55,479 bases of DNA from an uncultured Alphaproteobacteria bacterium (GTDB taxonomy: Bacteria > Pseudomonadota > Alphaproteobacteria > RF32 > CAG-239): assembly GCA_944393235.1 (NCBI GenBank), contig CALXZJ010000008.1:1-55479 (forward strand), read 5' to 3'. Position numbers and translations under genes: made by a program. Below the pieces are notes generated by a model. It worked only from the letters and a program-made list of their open reading frames with translations. It was not told the DNA's origin and searched no databases. Positions 2,032-41,669 of this stretch are shown here, in pieces. Positions within the stretch are counted from its first letter, which is position 1; each line of letters opens with the position of its first letter.

Positions 2032-2082
2032 TAGTCTGAAAACCACGCGCTAGGCGCGTGGTTCCAAAGAGCTTATAGCTAT

Positions 2083-2163
2083 GCGTCTAAAAAACTCCTT
2101 TGCTATTATGTGAGAGACGGTCTGGCAACTGTCTTAATAAAAGCAAAGGAGTTTTTTAGACGC
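2083..2163 (+). promoter_or_regulatory. Long inverted repeat occluding the transposase SD
   Basis: A perfect 22-bp inverted repeat: the left arm 2083-2104 begins GCGTCTAAAAAACTCC and the right arm 2142-2163 ends GGAGTTTTTTAGACGC. The right arm contains AAAGGAG, the only good Shine-Dalgarno before tnpA. In the mRNA the SD would be buried in the stem. IS200 elements are known to limit transposase translation with such a 5' leader structure. Confidence 0.75.
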
Positions 2164-2741: not shown

Positions 2742-5700
2742 CTAAAGCAATACTTTGTCGTCAACCAACATTTCCTGTAAATTATCAAGAGAGCGTTTTC
2801 TAAGTTTCTCTTGTAATTTTTTCATTTCATTGCATTTTTTTTCATACTCTTGATTGGTAATAAAAATAGCTTGTTTTATAGCATCAAAAAAATTATCGTT
2901 TGTATCATATAGGATACTATTTTCTGTTGTAAAATAATGAACTCGTGAAAATTTATTAGCTAGAATAATTGGCTTTGCAAAGCTATATGCTAATCCAAAA
3001 GTCCCCCTGGTCCCTGTGGTAATATATCGATCGTGATCCACATTATCCGGATCCAACAAACCCAATATAAAATCAGAATTATTAATAATCTTATACATTT
3101 CTGGATACGTAAGTTCTCCTTTAAAATCGACAAAATTTTCAATATCTTTAGCCAATTCTGGTTTTGCCCCTTTTCCTATAACCACAACTTTGAAATTTTC
3201 AATTTTTTCAGCTACAAGTTTTCGAACTGTACCAAATAACAAAGCGTGATTTTTACGAACATTTTCTACAGCTCCTACCACAACAAAAGTTCTTCTTAAA
3301 TTCAACAAATGAGGTTCAAAGATGTCTCCCGCATAAGTAACAAAAGCTGACGTTGTTTTTTTATCAGATGGATATTGAATATCTGAAATAACCACTAATT
3401 TATTACGATGAGCTTTATGCAACAATTCCATTCGATGTTCTATTGAAATAACTTTATTTTCTGGCATATTTATTTTATTATAGAAAAATTCATAAATATT
3501 AGGCCACCCTGGCATAGTTGTTCCTTTAATTCTATACAATGTATTAGAATTAAATAATATGTACTTGTATTTATGTAATAAATCTGATTGTAATAACATC
3601 CTAATAACTGGTTCTGAAGCATATACAACCCTGTACAAATATTTATTAACACAAACCAAATCTTGCATAATTTCGTGATTAGTATCTAACAATAAATCCA
3701 CGGAAAAACCAAGTTCATAAAAGTATTTAATAAATGAGGGCAACACTTCACCATGAACAGGATTTACTTCCACGATAAGAATTGCATTACTGCCACATGT
3801 ACCAAACATCAATTTACCATCAATACATTGATTTTCCAAAATGAGGGTATTTATCTCACACCGTTGAATATCTACAGACCGCTTTATATTAAGCAACGAC
3901 TTCTTAGAAATTGTAGTATGCTTAATACCACAAAACCGTCTCTCCTTATAAACTTCAGCATCATATAAAGAATATACTTCCTTTCCAAAAATAAAATATT
4001 TTATATAATTCTCAGATTTTTCTTTTAAGAAAAATCCAAATATGTATTTTTTAACTATTTTCTCTGTAGAAAATGTTTTACTCCATACTGGTAAATTAAA
4101 CAATTTAATAGAGCGAGAGTTTGTTGTTTCTTCTTTTAAAAAACATATTATATTTAAAAAAGAAACACTAATAAGTTCACATTCTTTACAACATATTTGA
4201 AAGCCAAGACAGAATAAAATTTTTCTATTATCAATAAAATTTTCTTTTAAAAGAGGAATACCAAAAAAATAAAATTTTTTCCAACTTTCAGCATGAGATA
4301 ATCCAAATAATTTCCATTTACATACATCTATATATTGAATTTTATGATCTTTTAATGGTGTTTGATAATAATATTTTGCCCATATATCAGATCCCGACAT
4401 GTATTTCTTTTTCCAAACCTTATCTTTCCCTGCATAATGTATAATATCTGCTTTATTTGATGCTAATAACTTATATTCTTCCTTAGTAATATGAAAAAAA
4501 CTCATTATTTTTTCTCTAGAATATTTTCTCCATGAATATGGAATATAATTATAAGTTGGAGATAGAAGAATAATATTTTCAGAAAAAATGCAATTAAAAG
4601 CATCTTGATCCATATATTTTCCTTCTGGAAAATTTAACTTGTAATCTATCAACTTAGAAGATATATCATCTTCACGCATTTTTTTAAGATTTAACAACAT
4701 CATTCCAGAATTAAAATAATATCTTAACTTATTTCTACGATGATCTTTATTAGAGAGGACACATTGTATATCTTGTACAACCGCGGCATAAGCATCTCTC
4801 AATTGAATATTATATAACGGTGTTAAATCCTTTTGCACAATCATATCCACATCCAGATACAATATTTTATCATAATTTTTAAAAATCTTAGGTAAATTAA
4901 ATTTAAATAATGCAGCAGATGAAACATACAAATGTGTATGATTAAATTGTTCAAATTCATCTTTTACATACACTAACTCCACATTATATTTACTAAGTAG
5001 CAATATATTTTCAGTAGATAAAGATGAACAAACAATATGTATGGAATATTCTGTTTGTTCCTCTTTATTTTTTAACAATGATTCTATTAAAGTTATCGTT
5101 TGAGGCACGTAATTATCATCTGTAATTAAAGCTATTTCAATCGGTTCTCTATACTTAGAAATATCTTTTACGATATGATTACAAATTGATTTAACGCTTT
5201 TTTCCCAAGAAAATTGTTTAGCTCTCTCTAATCCTTTTTGAGCCATTTTATCCCTAAATTTTTTATCAAAATAATATTTTTCATAAGCTCTAATATGCTG
5301 CTCATCACTATCCCAGTCAATCATAATTCCAGCATCGCCCACCACTTCCGGCAATGATGAATTGTTGCTTGTAATTACCGGACAACCACAGGCCATTGCC
5401 TCTAACGGCGGCAAGCCAAAACCTTCATATTGAGAAGTATAAACAAACCATTCAGCACCCGAATACAATGTTGGTAAATCTTCATCATCGACATAACCAG
5501 TTTGTATAATATTTTTTCTAGCATTTCCTAATCTGGATAAAACTCTCTCAAGTTTTGATTTATAATCACGACGTTCTGCTCCAGATAAAACATAATAACA
5601 ATTTTCAATTTTATGTTTTTTAATAAATTCTATAAAACATCTAAATCCTCTCAATACATTTTTTCTTGATTCTATTGTTCCGACACTTAAAACATATTTT

Positions 5701-6431: not shown

Positions 6432-7666
6432 TACAAAAACTCCAACAATGATTTATTTTCCCAAGAAAATTGTTTAGCTCTCTCCAATCCTTTTTGAGCC
6501 ATTTTGTTTCTGAATTTTTTATCAAAATAATATTTTTCATAGGCTTTTACGTGTTCTTCACAACTCATACAATCAATCAAAATTCCGGCATCCCCGACCA
6601 CTTCCGGCAACGAGGAATTATTACTCGTAATCACCGGACAACCGCAGGCCATTGCCTCTAACGGCGGCAAACCAAAACCTTCATATTGTGATGTATAAAC
6701 AAACCACTCGGCATTACTATACAGCTGAGCCATGAGCCTATCTTCCACATAACCTATTAATTGTATATGCTCCATTAGCTCATCATCAAAAACCATATGC
6801 TTAAACAACTTCTGATTACATCCCCCGACAACAAACACCAAATCTTTAACATTGTTTCTTTCAACAAAGCTGTTAAATGATTTCACCATCATCTCTAAAT
6901 TTTTACGAGGTTCTGTATTACAAATAGTCAGCACATATTTTCCGTTTATATTTAACGCTTGGCGAAAATCCTGTCTTTTATCAGGTTTATATATTTCTGA
7001 AGCTGCTAACGGAAACAAATGCATATCAGCATTTTTTAATTTTGGAAAATATTTAATAAACTCTCTTTTACTAAATTTCGAAATAACAAAATAATGATAA
7101 TCAGGATTAAGATCTTTGCATAAAAGACTAAACCAACTTGTATCACTTTCTTTATATTCAGGGCATGCAAGCGGTATAACGTCATATAATACAATAAATT
7201 TTTTAATTTTTTTAAAATGCTTTATGCTTTCAGGAACAGCATAACAAGGCGAAAAAAATATATCTATTGACGTCAAAGCAAATGAATATCCCTTATTATG
7301 ATACAAATCACAGAATTTTTTCAAAACATTCAAAATAGTTTTTTTTAACTTGATTATATTAAGTTTAAATAATCTACGCTTTTTACGTGCCATTGATTCT
7401 TTAAAATCAAAATACAATCCATAAGCATGAAGTCTTTCATAAAATGTATCATTAATAATTGGAATATTATGAAAATCATATAATTCTGTCTTTAGCTTTT
7501 TTTTAAGATCAATTAATTTATCAGAAGAACAATAAAATTTTAAATTTATATTATCTTTCTGCATCAATAATTTCAATATTTCATATGCCACATTATAAAT
7601 GCCACAGCGATAAGGCAGGCTCAATACTGTCGCATCAAACAGCAGGTTGATTTTCTTTTTAGCCAT
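6431..7666 (-). CDS. GT4-family glycosyltransferase, shortened C-terminus
   Basis: A 411-aa GT-B transferase with [14 protein letters not shown], the sugar-nucleotide motif [20 protein letters not shown] near 325, and [15 protein letters not shown]. The last third is nearly identical to the GT4 module of the next gene, down to [20 protein letters not shown]. After FSWE it ends abruptly in NKSLLEFL, where its neighbour continues [11 protein letters not shown]. The usual final helix is therefore lost, either by frameshift or by recombination. It is AT-rich like its partner. Transcribed with gmd upstream (50-nt gap) and coupled to the downstream gene by a one-base overlap. Probable role: sugar transfer in capsule or O-antigen synthesis. 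Confidence 0.87.
6461..6725 (-). repeat. Direct repeat shared with the downstream glycosyltransferase gene (copy at about 5211-5475)
   Basis: About 265 bases coding for the C-terminal donor-binding part of the GT4 fold are highly similar in the two adjacent genes, while the flanking parts diverge. The similarity fits a past duplication kept alike by gene conversion, or a recombination joint. It offers a substrate for deletion fusing the two genes. Confidence 0.7.
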
Positions 7667-7716
7667 TTTTATAAAAGTCCTTATCTTTCAGTCCCGATAT
7701 TCTTTCATCTCAAATT

Positions 7717-8754
7717 TTACAATTCCCCGTTTTTGGCGCGCTCAAGATCTTTTTCCATCATCATCTTGCACAAACCTTTGTAATCAACCTTGCGTTTCCA
7801 GCCCAAAACTTTTTCGGCTTTCGACGGATCACCGATAAGCAGTTCCACTTCCGCCGGCCGGAAAAATTTCGGGTTGACTTTAACCACAACTTTGCCGCTG
7901 TTTTGATCAATGCCGACTTCATTTTCGTTTTCGCCCTGCCACTTGATGTCAAAACCGGCAACCCTGCCCGCTTCTTCCACAAAGTCGCGTATCGGATGCG
8001 TCTCACCGGTAGCAATTACATACGTATCCGGCTTGTCCTGCTGCAGCATCAGCCACATCATTTCCACATAATCACCAGCAAAGCCCCAGTCGCGTTTAGC
8101 ATTCAGGTTTCCGAGTTCCAGAGGTTTATCCGTCAAACCGGTTGCAAGTCTGGCAAAATGCGCCGTAATTTTACGGGTGACAAATTCCTTGCCGCGCATC
8201 GGGCTTTCGTGATTAAACAATATCCCAGAGGTTGCAAACACATTAAAACTTTCCCGATAATTCACACACATCCAATGCGCCATAAGCTTTGCCACCCCAT
8301 AAGGCGAACGCGGATAAAACGGCGTTGTTTCCTTTTGCGGAATCTCCTGCACCTTGCCGAACATCTCGGAAGTGGATGCCTGATAAAGCCGTGTATGCGG
8401 CGAAAATTCTCTGATTGCCTCCAAAATATACAGCACGCCCATGCCGTCGGCCTGCGCCGTATAAATCGGTTCTTCCCACGAGGCCGCGACAAAGCTCTGC
8501 GCCGCCAGATTATAAAATTCATCCGGTTGATAATTTTTCATCAAGCGGCAGATATTGGAAAATTCCAGCAAATCAAAATCTTTCAATTCCACTTTGTCAA
8601 AAATGCCGTGTTCTTTAAGGCGTGAAAACGTATCCGTCGCCCCACGTCGGTATAAACCGATGACTCTGTACCCTTTTTCCAATAAAAACTTCGCCAGATA
8701 ACCGCCGTCCTGGCCGGTGATACCCGATATCATTGCAATTTTTTGTTTCGTCAT
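7717..8754 (-). CDS. gmd: GDP-mannose 4,6-dehydratase
   Basis: A 345-aa extended SDR enzyme. The nucleotide-binding GxxGxxG is in SGITGQDGGYLAKFL (G11, G14, G17), the active-site Ser/Thr region is STSEMFG near 128, and the catalytic YxxxK is in SPYGVAKL near 151. NHESPMRG, RDWGFAGDYVEMMW and FRPAEV are typical Gmd signatures. It converts GDP-mannose to GDP-4-keto-6-deoxymannose, the precursor of GDP-fucose, GDP-rhamnose or GDP-perosamine. No reductase or aminotransferase for the next step lies in the window, so the final sugar is unknown. Its start overlaps the stop of the upstream GT4 gene (ATGA). Confidence 0.96.
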   Translation of the reverse strand: MTKQKIAMISGITGQDGGYLAKFLLEKGYRVIGLYRRGATDTFSRLKEHGIFDKVELKDFDLLEFSNICRLMKNYQPDEFYNLAAQSFVAASWEEPIYTAQADGMGVLYILEAIREFSPHTRLYQASTSEMFGKVQEIPQKETTPFYPRSPYGVAKLMAHWMCVNYRESFNVFATSGILFNHESPMRGKEFVTRKITAHFARLATGLTDKPLELGNLNAKRDWGFAGDYVEMMWLMLQQDKPDTYVIATGETHPIRDFVEEAGRVAGFDIKWQGENENEVGIDQNSGKVVVKVNPKFFRPAEVELLIGDPSKAEKVLGWKRKVDYKGLCKMMMEKDLERAKNGEL

Positions 8755-9959: not shown

Positions 9960-10389
9960 AGCTGTGCCACCTTTCCAAGATCCAGGAAGAAGAATTGGCC
10001 TTATTTTCGCCGCCGACGCCGAATGCCAAATCAACATGACATTCTTTGCATACCGGAACTTCCGGAATGTTGTCTTTGCCGCGGTCGCCCCCGTTGGCAA
10101 ACACCAAATGCGCGTCTGGATATTTTGCCCGCGCTTTGCGGATACCGTCCGAAGCCGAATTGTCGTCATCGTTAAATTCCAAAACGTCGATAACGCCTTT
10201 TAAGTTTTCCAAAATCGCTTTGCGGGTTTTCATATTATGAAAGTTTTTGCCTTTCTTGCGGCACAGCCACGTGTCGGAATTCGCCAGCACAATCACTCCG
10301 TCGCTGGCCTCTGCCGAAGCTTTTATCATCTCGATATGTCCCTCGTGTATCGGGTCAAACCCGCCGCTTACAATGTAATATGTCGCCAT
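9946..10389 (-). CDS. Cytidylyltransferase-like nucleotidyltransferase
   Basis: A 147-aa Rossmann-like nucleotidyltransferase. SGGFDPIHEGHIEMI contains the (H/T)xGH motif of the superfamily, and ANGGDRGKDNIPE is the usual second motif. ATG at 10389 is chosen because GGAG lies 8 nt upstream. The closest family resemblance is to the RfaE C-terminal/glycerol-3-phosphate cytidylyltransferase group, which activates a sugar- or polyol-phosphate with ATP or CTP. No cognate kinase is visible nearby. It lies between a GT2 gene (11-nt gap) and a GT4 gene (overlap), so a role in making an activated building block for the same glycan is likely. Confidence 0.8.
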   Translation of the reverse strand: MATYYIVSGGFDPIHEGHIEMIKASAEASDGVIVLANSDTWLCRKKGKNFHNMKTRKAILENLKGVIDVLEFNDDDNSASDGIRKARAKYPDAHLVFANGGDRGKDNIPEVPVCKECHVDLAFGVGGENKANSSSWILERWHSFEAA

Positions 10390-36369: not shown

Positions 36370-36798
36370 TTAATCATCAACCACGATATACCACCCTTCC
36401 CCATACGGATTGTTCGGACTGTCTGCACGAAAACGACTGCCGGCACCATGTGGATTGTTGATACTGTCAGGCGAATATTTGCTGCCATAACGGCCGTAAG
36501 GGTTGGAAATTGAATCCGGGTCATAACGGTTGGTTGAAAGCCGGCCGCGGTAATTTCCCTCACTGTCGTAAAGTTTCGGCGCATTGGTCGCATATGGATT
36601 ATTTGCCGAGGTATTGCTGTATCGACTGCCATATTCCCCGTGCGGGTTATTGATGCTGTCTGCATCATAGCGGCTGCCGGCACCGTATGGGTTAGACGTC
36701 GAATCGGCATCATAACGGTTCGCCGAAAGCCGCCCAATAACGCGGGATTGCGCCGGCAAAGCCACACATATAAATAACAAAAACAATATATAACGCAT
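36370..36798 (-). CDS. Secreted NPYG-repeat protein
   Basis: 142 aa. A signal peptide (RYILFLLFICVALPAQS) precedes about seven imperfect repeats of roughly 16-18 residues of the form SxYxxDSxxNPYGxxG (for example RYDADSINNPHGEYGS, KYSPDSINNPHGAGS). Such repeat proteins of unknown function occur in diverse proteobacteria and are probably periplasmic or surface-bound. ATG at 36798 has AGAAAGG 7 nt upstream; the longer frame with MSERFV is not needed. Isolated minus-strand gene. Confidence 0.75.
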   Translation of the reverse strand: MRYILFLLFICVALPAQSRVIGRLSANRYDADSTSNPYGAGSRYDADSINNPHGEYGSRYSNTSANNPYATNAPKLYDSEGNYRGRLSTNRYDPDSISNPYGRYGSKYSPDSINNPHGAGSRFRADSPNNPYGEGWYIVVDD

Positions 36799-36979
36799 GA
36801 CAAACCTTTCTGACAAATATTTTACGTTTTATCATAAAATATGTTTTGACCGTTTACAATCAAAAACTTAGTTTGCTCAAAATATCCCCTCAATCAGCCA
36901 AAGATAAAACTTTTTATAAGTGATTTATTTGCTTGCAAAAAAGATTCAAAACCGTATGTTAAAAAAAAGGAGAAAAAAT

Positions 36980-37924: not shown

Positions 37925-37945
37925 TGGTTTTATCACATTCACCGG

Positions 37946-37983
37946 CACCGCTTACACCTTCATAGGCAAGCGGTGTTTTTTTT
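37946..37983 (+). terminator. Terminator of trxB
   Basis: CACCGCTT (37946-37953) pairs with AAGCGGTG (37968-37975), followed by TTTTTTTT. Confidence 0.85.
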
Positions 37984-37987
37984 ATGC

Positions 37988-38015
37988 TTGACATTTTTTC
38001 CAAATATTATATCTT
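37988..38015 (+). promoter_or_regulatory. Promoter of the NAD salvage operon
   Basis: TTGACA (37988-37993), 16-nt spacer, TATCTT (38010-38015). It predicts a transcript start at about 38021, exactly at the 5' edge of the first structured RNA element. Confidence 0.7.
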
Positions 38016-38021
38016 AAAATT

Positions 38022-38137
38022 GTTCTTGGAGCTTGCAGGGCTTATAAGCTCAAGGACGTTAACCCGAGCCAGGTTGTTTAATCAGGGAAGATTTTATACC
38101 CTTTTTATATGCCGGCTCCTTTGTAAGGAGTTTTTTT
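38022..38137 (+). ncRNA. Candidate riboswitch, copy 1 (GCAGGGCUUAU kissing-loop motif)
   Basis: P1 is formed by GTTCTT (38022-38027), a bulged G and GAGCTT (38029-38034) pairing with AAGCTC-AAGGAC (38046-38057). The 11-nt loop GCAGGGCTTAT is 38035-38045. P2 is AACC (38061-38064) with GGTT (38072-38075), and its loop CGAGCCA can pair with GGCT of loop 1. Expression platform: CTCCTT-TGT-AAGGAG (38116-38130) buries the SD and is followed by T7, so it can also terminate. GAGCC (38066-38070) is complementary to GGCTC (38114-38118), an apparent anti-terminator. A second copy with the same loop lies at 38706-38779. I do not recognise it as a known class; the ligand is unknown. Confidence 0.65.
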
Positions 38138-38138
38138 A

Positions 38139-38681
38139 ATGTCTGATTTCAAATATCGTCACGGTTTAAGCATCATGCGGGCGCAGCCTTTTCACATCGG
38201 ACACGCCATGCTGATTGACCGTATGTTAAAAGAGTGCGAACGCGTCACCATCATTTTGGGTTCCATTCAGGAACAGGGAACATCCCGCAATCCATTTAAC
38301 TACACCACCCGCAAAAAAATGATTCAAAACGTCTACCGCCACCGGCCGGAATATGAACGCTTAAAAATCATCGGCTTGTTTGACATCAACAACCCCGCCG
38401 AATGGGGCGAATACGTTTTGGATTTCATCAGCGAAACTTTTCCGGATCTGCCCAAACCCGATGTTTATTACGCCGGCAGTGCTTACGACGCCCATTGGTT
38501 TAAGGAATGTTTTGAACATATTGAGCTGGTGGATCGCACCGACCCTTCTTTTCCGTTTGTCAGCGGCTCCATGATTCGCGACATGATAAAATACGGCGAT
38601 GAACGCTGGAAAAATTTTGTGCATCCGGAAAATTGCCACATCATTGAAGATTATTTTTATCGGAAAAAAGCAATTATTTAA
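38139..38681 (+). CDS. Nicotinamide/nicotinate mononucleotide adenylyltransferase (NadM-like)
   Basis: 180 aa. The N-terminal (H/T)xGH motif is in RAQPFHIGHAML (His19, His22), followed by LGSIQEQGTSRNPFNYTTRK, a NadM-type GS-x-x-S-R-NPF loop. SGSMIRDMI near 141 matches the family's ISxTxIR motif. It joins NMN or NaMN with ATP to give NAD or NaAD. First gene of the salvage operon. The SD AAGGAG is buried in the leader hairpin, so translation or transcription is likely controlled by the upstream RNA element. Confidence 0.88.
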   Translation: MSDFKYRHGLSIMRAQPFHIGHAMLIDRMLKECERVTIILGSIQEQGTSRNPFNYTTRKKMIQNVYRHRPEYERLKIIGLFDINNPAEWGEYVLDFISETFPDLPKPDVYYAGSAYDAHWFKECFEHIELVDRTDPSFPFVSGSMIRDMIKYGDERWKNFVHPENCHIIEDYFYRKKAII

Positions 38682-38705
38682 TCTTTAATTTTAGCGCACA
38701 ATGCG

Positions 38706-38779
38706 CCGCCCGCCTGTGTCTTCCGCAGGGCTTATGGAAGACAGACGGTCATTTTAACCCTTAAATAAGCCTGAAAGGG
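38706..38779 (+). ncRNA. Candidate riboswitch, copy 2 (GCAGGGCUUAU kissing-loop motif)
   Basis: P1 is GTCTTCC (38718-38724) paired with GGAAGAC (38736-38742), with partial extension CCGCCT/AGACGG. The loop GCAGGGCTTAT (38725-38735) is identical to copy 1 although the stem is unrelated. P2 is CCCTT (38758-38762) with AAGGG (38775-38779). Its loop contains ATAAGCC (38765-38771), complementary to GGCTTAT of loop 1 over 7 bp. The 3' arm of P2 is the SD of the next gene (8 nt before ATG 38788). A loop-loop contact should therefore stabilise SD masking. Lies between the adenylyltransferase and the nicotinamidase genes. Confidence 0.65.
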
Positions 38780-38787
38780 AAAATATC

Positions 38788-39417
38788 ATGAACAACCGTA
38801 TCTTAATGCGGATAGATTTTCAAAACGATTTCGTTCACCCGAACGGAAAACTTTCCGTCGCCGCACCGGAGTTGATTGAACGTCATCAAAAATTCGCCGC
38901 CAACCTCCAGCGTGGTATGTTTGATGCCGTCATAGATTCATACGACACGCATTTTTTGGAAACCTATCTCAACACCAACGAGGCCAAATCTTATCCGCCG
39001 CATTGCATTTTCGGCACCAAAGGCTGGCAATCGGCAGCGCCGTTTAAGGACAATATAGAACTCATCAAAATCTTTAAGGGCACCACCAACATCTGGCATG
39101 AAAAACACAACGACGCAATTTTAAGCGCTGAATGGCAAAACAAAAAAGTTTATCTTTGCGGCGTGTTAAGCGACGTGTGCGTTAAAGAAGCCATGGACGG
39201 CCTTCTCAAACGCGGTGCCGAAGTTTGCGTTTTGGAAGATTTATGTTTGGGCTTAAACCGCCAAATCGGCGACATCTTGAACGACGAAGTTTACCGTCCG
39301 TTCATCAACGCCGGCAAATTGCACAGCATCACCAGCGCTCAATTTTTTCGCACCTGCCTTTTAGAAAAAAAGGCACAACACAATTTGGTTCATTTTAACA
39401 AGGGGAACAACCAATGA
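38788..39417 (+). CDS. pncA: Nicotinamidase / isochorismatase-family hydrolase
   Basis: 209 aa. RIDFQNDFV holds the catalytic Asp10, YPPHCIFGTKGWQ is the region before the catalytic Lys segment, and CGVLSDVCVKEAMDGLLKRG contains the nucleophile Cys131. These match PncA-type cysteine hydrolases, which deamidate nicotinamide to nicotinate. The neighbours pncB and nadE support this substrate. SD AAAGGG is inside the P2 hairpin of the second RNA element. Overlaps pncB by 4 nt. Confidence 0.85.
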   Translation: MNNRILMRIDFQNDFVHPNGKLSVAAPELIERHQKFAANLQRGMFDAVIDSYDTHFLETYLNTNEAKSYPPHCIFGTKGWQSAAPFKDNIELIKIFKGTTNIWHEKHNDAILSAEWQNKKVYLCGVLSDVCVKEAMDGLLKRGAEVCVLEDLCLGLNRQIGDILNDEVYRPFINAGKLHSITSAQFFRTCLLEKKAQHNLVHFNKGNNQ

Positions 39418-40883
39418 GAAACGATATTTTACAATCCGGAACACCTTTTTTCTGCGACTTATACCATTTAACCATGGCGCAGGCCTGGTTCAAAGACGGC
39501 AAACATCTGGAACCCAAAACTTCCGAAGCCTTTTTCCGCAAATGCCCGTTCGGCGGCAGTTATCTTTTAAGCGCCGGCTTAGGCGAATTTTTACAATGGG
39601 CGGAAAACTGGCAAATCAAACCGGAAGATATTGACTATCTGGCGTCATTAAAAAACCGCGACGGCAACCGTTTGTTTGCCAAAGACTTCCTGCAATTTTT
39701 AAACGGACAACGCTTGCAGCTTGACATCCGTGCCGTTCCCGAAGGCGAAATCGTTTTCCCCAACGAGCCGGTATTAAGCACCAGCGGTCCCTGTTGGCAA
39801 GTAGATATGATTGAATCGGCTTTTTTAAATGCGTTTAACGCCCAAAGCCTGATTGCCACCAAAGCCTCCCGCATGGTCACTGCCGCCGCTGCCGACGGAA
39901 TCAAACGTCCGGTAATGGAATTCGGTCTTCGCCGTGCGCAGGATTTCGGCTGTTTTCTGCCCACGCGCGCCGCTTTTATCGGCGGCTGCTGTGGCACTTC
40001 AAATGTTAAAGCGGCACAATATTACGGCATTCCGCCCAAAGGCACCATGGCGCACTCGTTTGTCATGAGCTACGCCGATGAGCTTGATGCTTTCAAAGCG
40101 TATATGCGCGCCTCCGTCGGCAATACCATTTTATTGGTAGATACGTATGACACCCGCCAAGGTGTTAAAAACGCCATCCGTGCCGCGCAGGAAACCGGCA
40201 TTGAACTTCAGGGCATCCGCATAGATTCCGGCGATCTGGCTTATTGGGCAAAAGAGGCAAAAGCCATGTTGGAAGCCGCCGGCATGCCCAATGTTCAGCT
40301 ATTGGCATCCAACGATTTGGATGAGCACTTGATAGAAAATCTTGTCATGGTGCAACGGGCGCCGTATGACGCCTTTGCCGCCGGCACTAAACTGGTGACT
40401 GCTTATGACACGCCGGCTTTGGGCGGGGTTTATAAAACCAAACAGTATAACGGTGTGCCGAAAATCAAAATTGCCGAAGGCAAAACCACTATCCCCGGCG
40501 CCACAAACGTTATTCGTATTATCAAAAACGGCATGTTTGAAGGCGATATCATCACCCGACAAAACGATGAACTGATAAAAGACGGACGTCTGACCCGCAC
40601 GCTCACTTCATGGCGTTTGAACAGCACCACCGGCGAGCGCGTTGCGTTTACGCAAAATCAGGAAGCTTATGGCCTCTTAAAACCGGTGATGGCAAACGGC
40701 AAAGTGATTGCCGATGACATCAACCGTTCTTTAACTGACATTCAAGCCGCCGCGACGCAAAACCTCAACCGTTTGGATAAAGCCTACAAACGCCTTGCCA
40801 ACCCGCATCTTTACGGCGTAGGATTAGAGCAGAATTTAAATGATTTGCGGCAAAACTTAATTAAACAACATCAGGAGCGTTAA
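39414..40883 (+). CDS. pncB: Nicotinate phosphoribosyltransferase
   Basis: 489 aa, type II/III PRTase. DLYHLTMAQAWFKDG is near the N-terminus, EFGLRRAQDFG is the substrate loop, GTMAHSFVMSYADE carries the His phosphorylated during ATP-coupled catalysis (near 213), then VDTYDTRQGVKNAI, IRIDSGDLAYWAKEA, LLASNDLDEH and FAAGTKLVTAYDTPALGGVYK. It forms NaMN from nicotinate and PRPP. Full length for the family. Coupled upstream to pncA and 3 nt from nadE. Confidence 0.95.
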   Translation: MRNDILQSGTPFFCDLYHLTMAQAWFKDGKHLEPKTSEAFFRKCPFGGSYLLSAGLGEFLQWAENWQIKPEDIDYLASLKNRDGNRLFAKDFLQFLNGQRLQLDIRAVPEGEIVFPNEPVLSTSGPCWQVDMIESAFLNAFNAQSLIATKASRMVTAAAADGIKRPVMEFGLRRAQDFGCFLPTRAAFIGGCCGTSNVKAAQYYGIPPKGTMAHSFVMSYADELDAFKAYMRASVGNTILLVDTYDTRQGVKNAIRAAQETGIELQGIRIDSGDLAYWAKEAKAMLEAAGMPNVQLLASNDLDEHLIENLVMVQRAPYDAFAAGTKLVTAYDTPALGGVYKTKQYNGVPKIKIAEGKTTIPGATNVIRIIKNGMFEGDIITRQNDELIKDGRLTRTLTSWRLNSTTGERVAFTQNQEAYGLLKPVMANGKVIADDINRSLTDIQAAATQNLNRLDKAYKRLANPHLYGVGLEQNLNDLRQNLIKQHQER

Positions 40884-40886
40884 ACC

Positions 40887-41669
40887 ATGCATGAACAAAT
40901 TTGGGAAAAATTAAAAGACGGTCTGCGGCAATACTGTCGGCAAAACAACTTTCAAAACGTTATTTTAGGGCTTTCCGGCGGTATTGATTCCGCTTTGACG
41001 GCGGTGCTTGCCGCCGACGCTTTGGGCGGACAAAACGTAACCGCAATCATGATGCGCACCAAATACACCTCGCCGTTAAGTTTGGAAATCGCCCGCGAGA
41101 TTTCCCGCCTGAATCAACTGCAGTATCACGGGTTGGACATAGATGCGCTGATTGCCGCCGAAACCGACTTCTTACGTCAAGCATTCGGTGAACAACCCAA
41201 AGGCATCGTGCTGGAAAATCTGCAGGCGCGCGCCCGCGGCAAAATCCTGATGGCATGGTCCAACCAGTTCGGCGGGTTGGTGTTGGCTTGCGGCAACCGC
41301 TCCGAAATCGCCACCGGTTATTGCACCTTGTACGGCGATACCTGCGGTGGACTGGCGCCAATCGGAAGCTTATACAAAACCCAGGTTTTTGAACTTGCCA
41401 AATGGCGCAACAATCTAAACCGCGTACTGCCAAGCGAAGTAATTGTACGAGCCCCGAGCGCCGAACTTGCGCTCAATCAAAAAGACGAGAACACGCTGCC
41501 GCCTTATTCGGTGTTGGATAATATTTTGACACTTTATCTTGATAAACATTTGTCAAAAGAAGAAATCATCGCCGCCGGTACGGAGGAAAAAACCGTTGAC
41601 TGGGTCATAAACCGCTACCACGCCATGGCGTTCAAACGCATCCAGCTTCCCCCACCGCTGGAGATTTAA
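40887..41669 (+). CDS. nadE: NAD synthetase
   Basis: 260 aa. The PP-loop ATP pyrophosphatase signature is LGLSGGIDSALTAVLAADAL (about 29-48), and EIATGYCTLYGDTCGGLAPI and KTQVFELA are typical NadE segments. It lacks the N-terminal glutaminase domain, so it must use ammonia directly or a separate amidotransferase. It converts NaAD to NAD, completing the nicotinamide to NAD route encoded by this operon. Last gene, followed by a strong terminator. Confidence 0.94.
   Translation: MHEQIWEKLKDGLRQYCRQNNFQNVILGLSGGIDSALTAVLAADALGGQNVTAIMMRTKYTSPLSLEIAREISRLNQLQYHGLDIDALIAAETDFLRQAFGEQPKGIVLENLQARARGKILMAWSNQFGGLVLACGNRSEIATGYCTLYGDTCGGLAPIGSLYKTQVFELAKWRNNLNRVLPSEVIVRAPSAELALNQKDENTLPPYSVLDNILTLYLDKHLSKEEIIAAGTEEKTVDWVINRYHAMAFKRIQLPPPLEI

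Follow-up and report, generated by a model that had tools for sequence, protein, structure and literature searches.

A kissing-hairpin RNA element before NAD salvage genes of alphaproteobacteria, suspected to be a new class of cofactor-sensing riboswitch

Two leaders within one NAD salvage operon of an uncultured, gut-type alphaproteobacterium each carry a small RNA element in which a bulged hairpin, P1, and a second hairpin can meet through a loop-loop (kissing) helix. A new class of cofactor-sensing riboswitch is suspected, because the element recurs in dozens of related species and because both its stems and the loop-loop contact co-vary. On the evidence here, the element appears to be an RNA class not described before, and comparison supports it strongly: a conserved fold, covariation, mutually exclusive pairings, and a gene association are all evident in the sequences compared. 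It is judged probable that both copies are aptamers of a cis-acting riboswitch class outside Rfam 15, with NAD+ or a close relative as the most likely ligand; binding, ligand identity, and the direction of control are inferred. There are no binding or expression data, and the distribution of the element is narrow.

The operon and its two leaders

The window, that is, the whole stretch of DNA that was analysed (55,479 nucleotides), contains an operon with the gene order adenylyltransferase, probable nicotinamidase, pncB, nadE (Table 1). The adenylyltransferase does not reach the cut-offs that NCBIfam sets for named equivalogs, and the NCBIfam nicotinamidase match of the second product is weak. 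Since the thioredoxin reductase gene upstream ends in a hairpin and a U-run, the operon looks like its own transcription unit. A promoter-like site lies just upstream of copy 1, from which transcription would begin at or near the first base of P1. About 1.5 sites of equal quality are expected by chance in the region; the position of the site relative to P1 is a supporting argument for reading it as a promoter.

No nadA match was found in the organism's own genome (stated completeness, 98.3%) by a search that detected nadA in 12 of 14 known genomes used as a control. The sole nadD-like match in this genome is below cut-off. Consequently, niacin salvage is probably the main path to NAD in this organism.

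The 11-nt loop GCAGGGCUUAU is present exactly in both leaders. As an earlier note made from the window alone had claimed, it is carried on inner stems that differ from each other and are fully paired, and the second hairpins that the note described, whose loops contain GAGCC and AUAAGCC, are indeed there and could pair with the GGCUU(AU) of loop 1. Throughout the genome (1.43 Mb), GCAGGGCTTAT occurs exactly only at these two positions, and a reversed control pattern does not occur at all. Considered only within the window, a pair of such 11-mers lacks significance, since 15 of 100 shuffles also produce two if one mismatch is tolerated. The folding of the single sequences is likewise unremarkable (z of -0.70 for copy 1 and -1.01 for copy 2). 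The proof of the element is therefore comparative.

Table 1. Features of the NAD salvage operon and its leaders in the window
Feature	Position	Strand	Details and basis
Hairpin and U-run ending the thioredoxin reductase gene	37945..37983	+	Direct sequence reading
Sigma-70-like promoter	37988..38015	+	TTGACA, 16 nt, TATCTT; 10/12 matches
Copy 1, whole	38022-38075		
Copy 1 P1 hairpin	38022..38057	+	Sequence reading, fold, covariation
Copy 1 P1 outer stem	38022-38027 with 38052-38057	+	GUUCUU/AAGGAC
Copy 1 P1 bulged G	38028	+	
Copy 1 P1 inner stem	38029-38034 with 38046-38051	+	GAGCUU/AAGCUC
Copy 1 loop 1	38035-38045		11 nt
Copy 1 hairpin 2	38061..38075	+	AACC/GGUU, loop CGAGCCA
Copy 1 possible kiss	38066-38070 with 38039-38043		GAGCC with GGCUU
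Copy 1 expression platform	38114..38137	+	Folding, homologue comparison
Copy 1 anti-sequestor strand	38114-38118	+	GGCUC, can pair with GAGCC of hairpin 2
Copy 1 SD sequestor (alternative pairing)	C38116-U38121 with A38125-G38130	+	Contains SD GGAG
Copy 1 U7 after the SD hairpin	38131-38137	+	Terminator-like
NMN adenylyltransferase-like gene	38139..38681	+	Cytidylyltransferase-like, 180 aa; Pfam CTP_transf_like over cut-off
Copy 2, whole	38710-38779		
Copy 2 P1 hairpin	38710..38748	+	Sequence reading, fold, covariation
Copy 2 P1 outer stem	38710-38715 with 38743-38748	+	CCGCCU/AGACGG, one mismatch
Copy 2 P1 bulge	between outer and inner stems		GU
Copy 2 P1 inner stem	38718-38724 with 38736-38742	+	GUCUUCC/GGAAGAC
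Copy 2 loop 1	38725-38735		11 nt
Copy 2 hairpin 2	38758..38780	+	CCCUU/AAGGG, AUAAGCC in loop
Copy 2 possible kiss, 7 bp	38765-38771 with 38729-38735		AUAAGCC with GGCUUAU
Isochorismatase-family gene, probable nicotinamidase	38788..39417	+	Pfam Isochorismatase over cut-off
Nicotinate phosphoribosyltransferase (pncB)	39414..40883	+	Over equivalog cut-off
NAD synthase (nadE)	40887..41669	+	

Three other features of the window lie outside the operon. A TIGR00482 adenylyltransferase family match (10081-10371, - strand) is below cut-off, with an E value of 6e-6. At 2041-2149 (+ strand) there is a match over the gathering score (67.7 bits) to Rfam STnc490 (RF01405), which is described as an Hfq-binding RNA and is unexpected for this organism. 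Finally, an open frame at 36370-36816 (- strand), which adjoins a tRNA gene, contains RYDADSINNPHG/NNPYG-type repeats.

Homologues and covariation

A search of public genomes with the adenylyltransferase as query yielded 58 loci, all from alphaproteobacterial or proteobacterial metagenome assemblies and many from animal guts. Most of these loci have both copies; the copy before the adenylyltransferase is referred to as type 1 and that before the nicotinamidase as type 2. Homologues of the element are present in more than 50 related genomes, and compensatory changes among them affect all P1 pairs as well as the loop-loop helix. Among 70 homologues, 92.7% of the P1 cells are paired, versus 69.5% after shuffling and 44-51% with a slid partner. 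Changes on both sides occur at 12 of the 12 pairs, with 278 double-changed cells in all, and the covariation score is 0.840 versus 0.378 for shuffled alignments. The supposition that base changes in the stems are compensated is thus borne out. The earlier note had also held that its proposal would fall if NAD genes elsewhere were not preceded by homologues or if an alignment failed to covary; homologues sought in related genomes proved abundant, the stems covary strongly, and covariation is also seen in the kissing helix. A clear Rfam hit, the remaining condition named there, was not obtained either.

Kissing pairs were counted separately for type 2 (alignment A2) and for a variant, 1b (alignment A6), because hairpin 2 was misaligned when both copy types were put into one alignment. 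The type 2 kiss, GGCUUAU/AUAAGCC, is paired in 98.9% of cells (39 sequences). In four type 2 homologues (L069, L070, L084, and L085), GGCCUAU faces AGGCC or UGGCC, so that a U-A pair has become C-G; the step from GGCUUAU/AUAAGCC to GGCCUAU/AUAGGCC is a double change at one pair. Type 1 loops are nearly invariant as GGCUU/GAGCC, with GAGCC unchanged in 42 homologues. The kissing loops of type 1a, which hardly vary, are uninformative by themselves, and support for the contact comes from the 1b variant and from the termite-gut homologue L085, whose type 1 loops have changed in a compensatory manner to GGCUA/UAGCC. Given that the helix is down to about three Watson-Crick pairs in L082 and in most 1b members, the minimal kiss is taken to be GGC/GCC.

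Expression platforms

In the type 1 leaders that were compared, the SD is preceded by a distal strand, mostly GGCUCC, and followed by 6-9 U and then the start codon. Being complementary to both, the distal strand could pair with either loop 2 or the SD. Leaders were folded from hairpin 2 to the U-run, with five loop 2 nucleotides masked to mimic the kiss or with random masks as controls. The SD was paired over at least 4 nt in 26 of 65 leaders when they folded freely, in all 65 when loop 2 was masked, and in 346 of 650 folds with control masks. Of 57 leaders, 43 have loop 2 paired with the distal strand when folded freely, whereas this anti-sequestor pairing is missing from the free minimum-energy structure of the other 14. 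Furthermore, the distal strand changes together with both of its partners. The combinations of distal strand, loop 2, and SD include GGCUCC/GAGCC/GGAG, GGGCUCUUUC/UAGCC/GAAAGGG, and GGCCUUUC/GGCC, the last with an SD of GAGAGG or AAAGG.

The masked folding and the joint change of the three strands together support two exclusive states: an anti-sequestor state, in which loop 2 is bound by the distal strand and the SD is free, and a kissing state, in which the SD is hidden and a terminator-like hairpin with U7 is formed. As far as sequence and an energy model can tell, the leaders thus have pairings that exclude one another and that involve the SD or a terminator. In copy 2, hairpin 2 itself uses the SD of the nicotinamidase gene, AAGGGA, as its 3' arm. 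Since the kissing fold hides the SD in each case, both copies are read as OFF switches. Three features go beyond the earlier note: the alternative pairing of the copy 1 SD, the fact that hairpin 2 of copy 2 contains the SD of its gene, and the variant linked with PnuC that is described below.

Distribution and the 1b variant

A covariance model had been suggested as the means of finding relatives, and one built from the aligned homologues (R1) matched 54 of 153 genomes of the organism's own order, a set nearly identical to its family. Within the family, 80 genomes encode the adenylyltransferase and 72 do not; R1 matched 54 of the former and none of the latter (Fisher p 1e-21, uncorrected for relatedness). 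In a sample of the class (385 genomes), accepted R1 matches were confined to the family and to a termite-gut genome (G182), the source of L085, and in a sample of the phylum (299 genomes) only the organism's own genome was matched. A second order, that of genome G441 and its relatives, also has types 1 and 2, since L084 and L089 both belong to a single assembly of it (SIG53).

Several weaker candidates in the class were discarded. Weak matches of R1 (G180, G406, G432, G452) and of R2 (G372, G487, G119, G059) were set aside on reading, as the arrangement of hairpin 2 and SD was unmatched or the sequence was coding-like; the matches in G336, G508, G529, and G832 were weak and were not accepted.

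The 1b variant was found by reading the leaders of adenylyltransferase paralogues. Its loop has 9 nt, mostly GAGGGC[A/U]AU, its hairpin is GAC[U/G]UGGCC[A/G]GUC, its distal strand is usually GGCCUUU, and its P1 likewise shows compensatory changes. It occurs in six genomes of the organism's own family and in ten of the second order. Thus, the element is found before adenylyltransferase and nicotinamidase genes and, as 1b, before the adenylyltransferase paralogue. In 1b operons, the paralogue is followed by a protein of the F420-ligase family, and a PnuC-like gene is present in several of those that were read further (PF04973, E 6e-37, in the one operon scanned). In genome G821, the 1b operon adjoins nadE, pncB, adenylyltransferase, and a nicotinamidase-like gene, as judged by similarity to the genes of the window. 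Without binding data, it can only be said that 1b may carry a shifted ligand preference.

Some neighbouring genes also deserve mention. In L168-L172 and L202-L205, a protein of ~400 aa from the F420-0:gamma-glutamyl ligase family (PF01996) comes right after the adenylyltransferase paralogue. A nearly intact 1b leader in L187 (G441:C1:38500-43655, - strand) stands before an adenylyltransferase gene with stops and frameshifts, and since that gene is broken, the leader has outlived it. In L041, the gene after the controlled adenylyltransferase (4561-5385) resembles by eye an inorganic pyrophosphatase, an enzyme that would pull the adenylyltransferase reaction forward. In L083, from a reindeer-gut genome, an open frame downstream of the NAD genes (7007-8521) starts with MKYRLGLDLGVGSIGSAIVELDEKNNVQ and looks by eye like a Cas9 N-terminus.

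Comparison with known RNAs

The element could not be placed in NAD+-I, NAD+-II, or another known class when the earlier note was made, and comparison with the 4227 families of Rfam 15 gave no match either. In the window, no riboswitch was matched at the gathering score or, around the motif, at E values up to 10, and none was matched in 12 homologous loci at the gathering score or in two further relaxed scans. The Rfam covariance models gave no match to NAD+-II, with the reservation that the presence of an NAD+-II model in the library was unchecked. Matches to MESTIT1_1, sR38, and MAT2A_A, at gathering and relaxed thresholds, were chance-like and were rejected. Searches of the open-access literature on riboswitches of NAD genes found no account of the element; subscription papers and bioRxiv were outside their coverage. 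The literature found describes only two NAD riboswitch classes, both rare.

The closest of these in biology is NAD+-II (the pnuC motif), a pseudoknotted OFF switch over the SD that consists of P1, P1a, an A5 strand, and a pseudoknot using the SD itself (PMC7749635, PMC10085692). Like the present element, it is a leader RNA associated with genes for NAD salvage or uptake (PnuC); both contain a pseudoknot and are predicted to exert OFF control by hiding the SD. However, where NAD+-II has P1/P1a, an A-rich triplex strand, and the SD as pseudoknot strand, the present element has two separate hairpins that kiss through a strand (GAGCC or AUAAGCC) apart from the SD, which is hidden instead either in hairpin 2 or in a distal hairpin of its own. 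NAD+-I (the nadA motif) has two tandem bulged domains in one leader, with a ACANCCCC bulge (PMC7297122, PMC7708056, PMC10702441), and has been reported only from Acidobacteria (PMC7749635). The likeness lies in two copies of one aptamer linked with NAD genes, the second of them involved in SD control, but the copies here are about 690 nt apart and belong to two leaders of one operon, and the ACANCCCC bulge is absent from the aligned homologues, which also gave no Rfam match. In general design, the element resembles OFF riboswitches with competing pairings, having mutually exclusive anti-sequestor and sequestor helices and a U-run after the SD hairpin; it differs in an aptamer whose sequence and fold are not in Rfam 15. 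The general marks of a riboswitch that can be judged from sequence are all there: a structured, covarying leader, a platform of exclusive pairings, and association with the genes of a single pathway.

Alternative explanations

The main rival is that the leaders are sites for an RNA-binding protein, such as the adenylyltransferase or another NAD enzyme, which would act as autoregulatory operators through the same switch architecture without direct binding of a metabolite. The tie to one enzyme family fits protein autoregulation too, given that R1 matches only genomes encoding this adenylyltransferase and that the element stays with the gene whatever its operon partners. Even so, the element also precedes the nicotinamidase gene of the same operon, and 26 of the 80 family genomes with the adenylyltransferase have no R1 match, many of the leaders concerned showing no trace of the element. 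In addition, a kissing fold that controls the SD is typical of known riboswitches. A protein operator is therefore considered unlikely. That a riboswitch controls these genes in response to a metabolite outside the NAD core, such as PRPP, glutamine, ATP, or a pyridine catabolite, is quite unlikely as well. The ligand has been inferred from gene context alone, and 1b operons also encode the F420-ligase-like protein and further products whose function is unknown, but what the operon types have in common is NAD salvage (adenylyltransferase, nicotinamidase, pncB, nadE, PnuC).

A divergent member of NAD+-II or NAD+-I would account for the same biology, including, for NAD+-II, the pseudoknotted OFF control over the SD noted above; the lack of Rfam matches to either class in the window or the homologous loci, together with the different strands that kiss, renders it highly improbable. 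It is scarcely credible that the two palindromic copies, with their identical centre, are inverted repeats bound as DNA by a transcription factor, with the RNA structure being incidental. P1 begins at about the transcript start, copy 2 lies within the operon, 56 of the 840 stem cells are G-U, the arms vary freely while pairing is kept, and covariation between loops would be meaningless for a DNA site.

Model and implications

A metabolite-sensing riboswitch thus remains the preferred reading. In this model, P1 presents the conserved loop G[C/A]AGGGCUUAU, which would form a kissing helix with the loop of the second hairpin, and a ligand, most likely NAD+ or a relative (NMN, NaMN, NaAD), would stabilise that fold. 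That the kiss is ligand driven, and that NAD+ or a near relative drives it, is inferred from the pathway and from general knowledge of riboswitches. In copy 1, the kiss would withdraw GAGCC from its alternative partner GGCUC, leaving CUCC to pair with the SD GGAG; the resulting hairpin would hide the ribosome site and, with U7 directly after it, might act as a transcription terminator too. In copy 2, the stabilised hairpin 2, which contains the SD, would block translation of the nicotinamidase directly. High NAD would then turn salvage off in an organism without detectable nadA. With somewhat more reserve, it is considered likely that the element adds a third structural class to the riboswitches of the NAD pathway, one based on kissing hairpins, with two platforms in one operon and with a 1b variant whose ligand preference is possibly shifted.

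If so, a third class with an independent fold would be another RNA solution to the recognition of the cofactor or its precursors. The element offers natural variants and two readable switching mechanisms, and because the aptamer is small (about 55-70 nt), it is suited to direct probing and crystallography. If the model is true, it would also explain how the supply of NAD is controlled in uncultured, probably niacin-dependent alphaproteobacteria of the gut.
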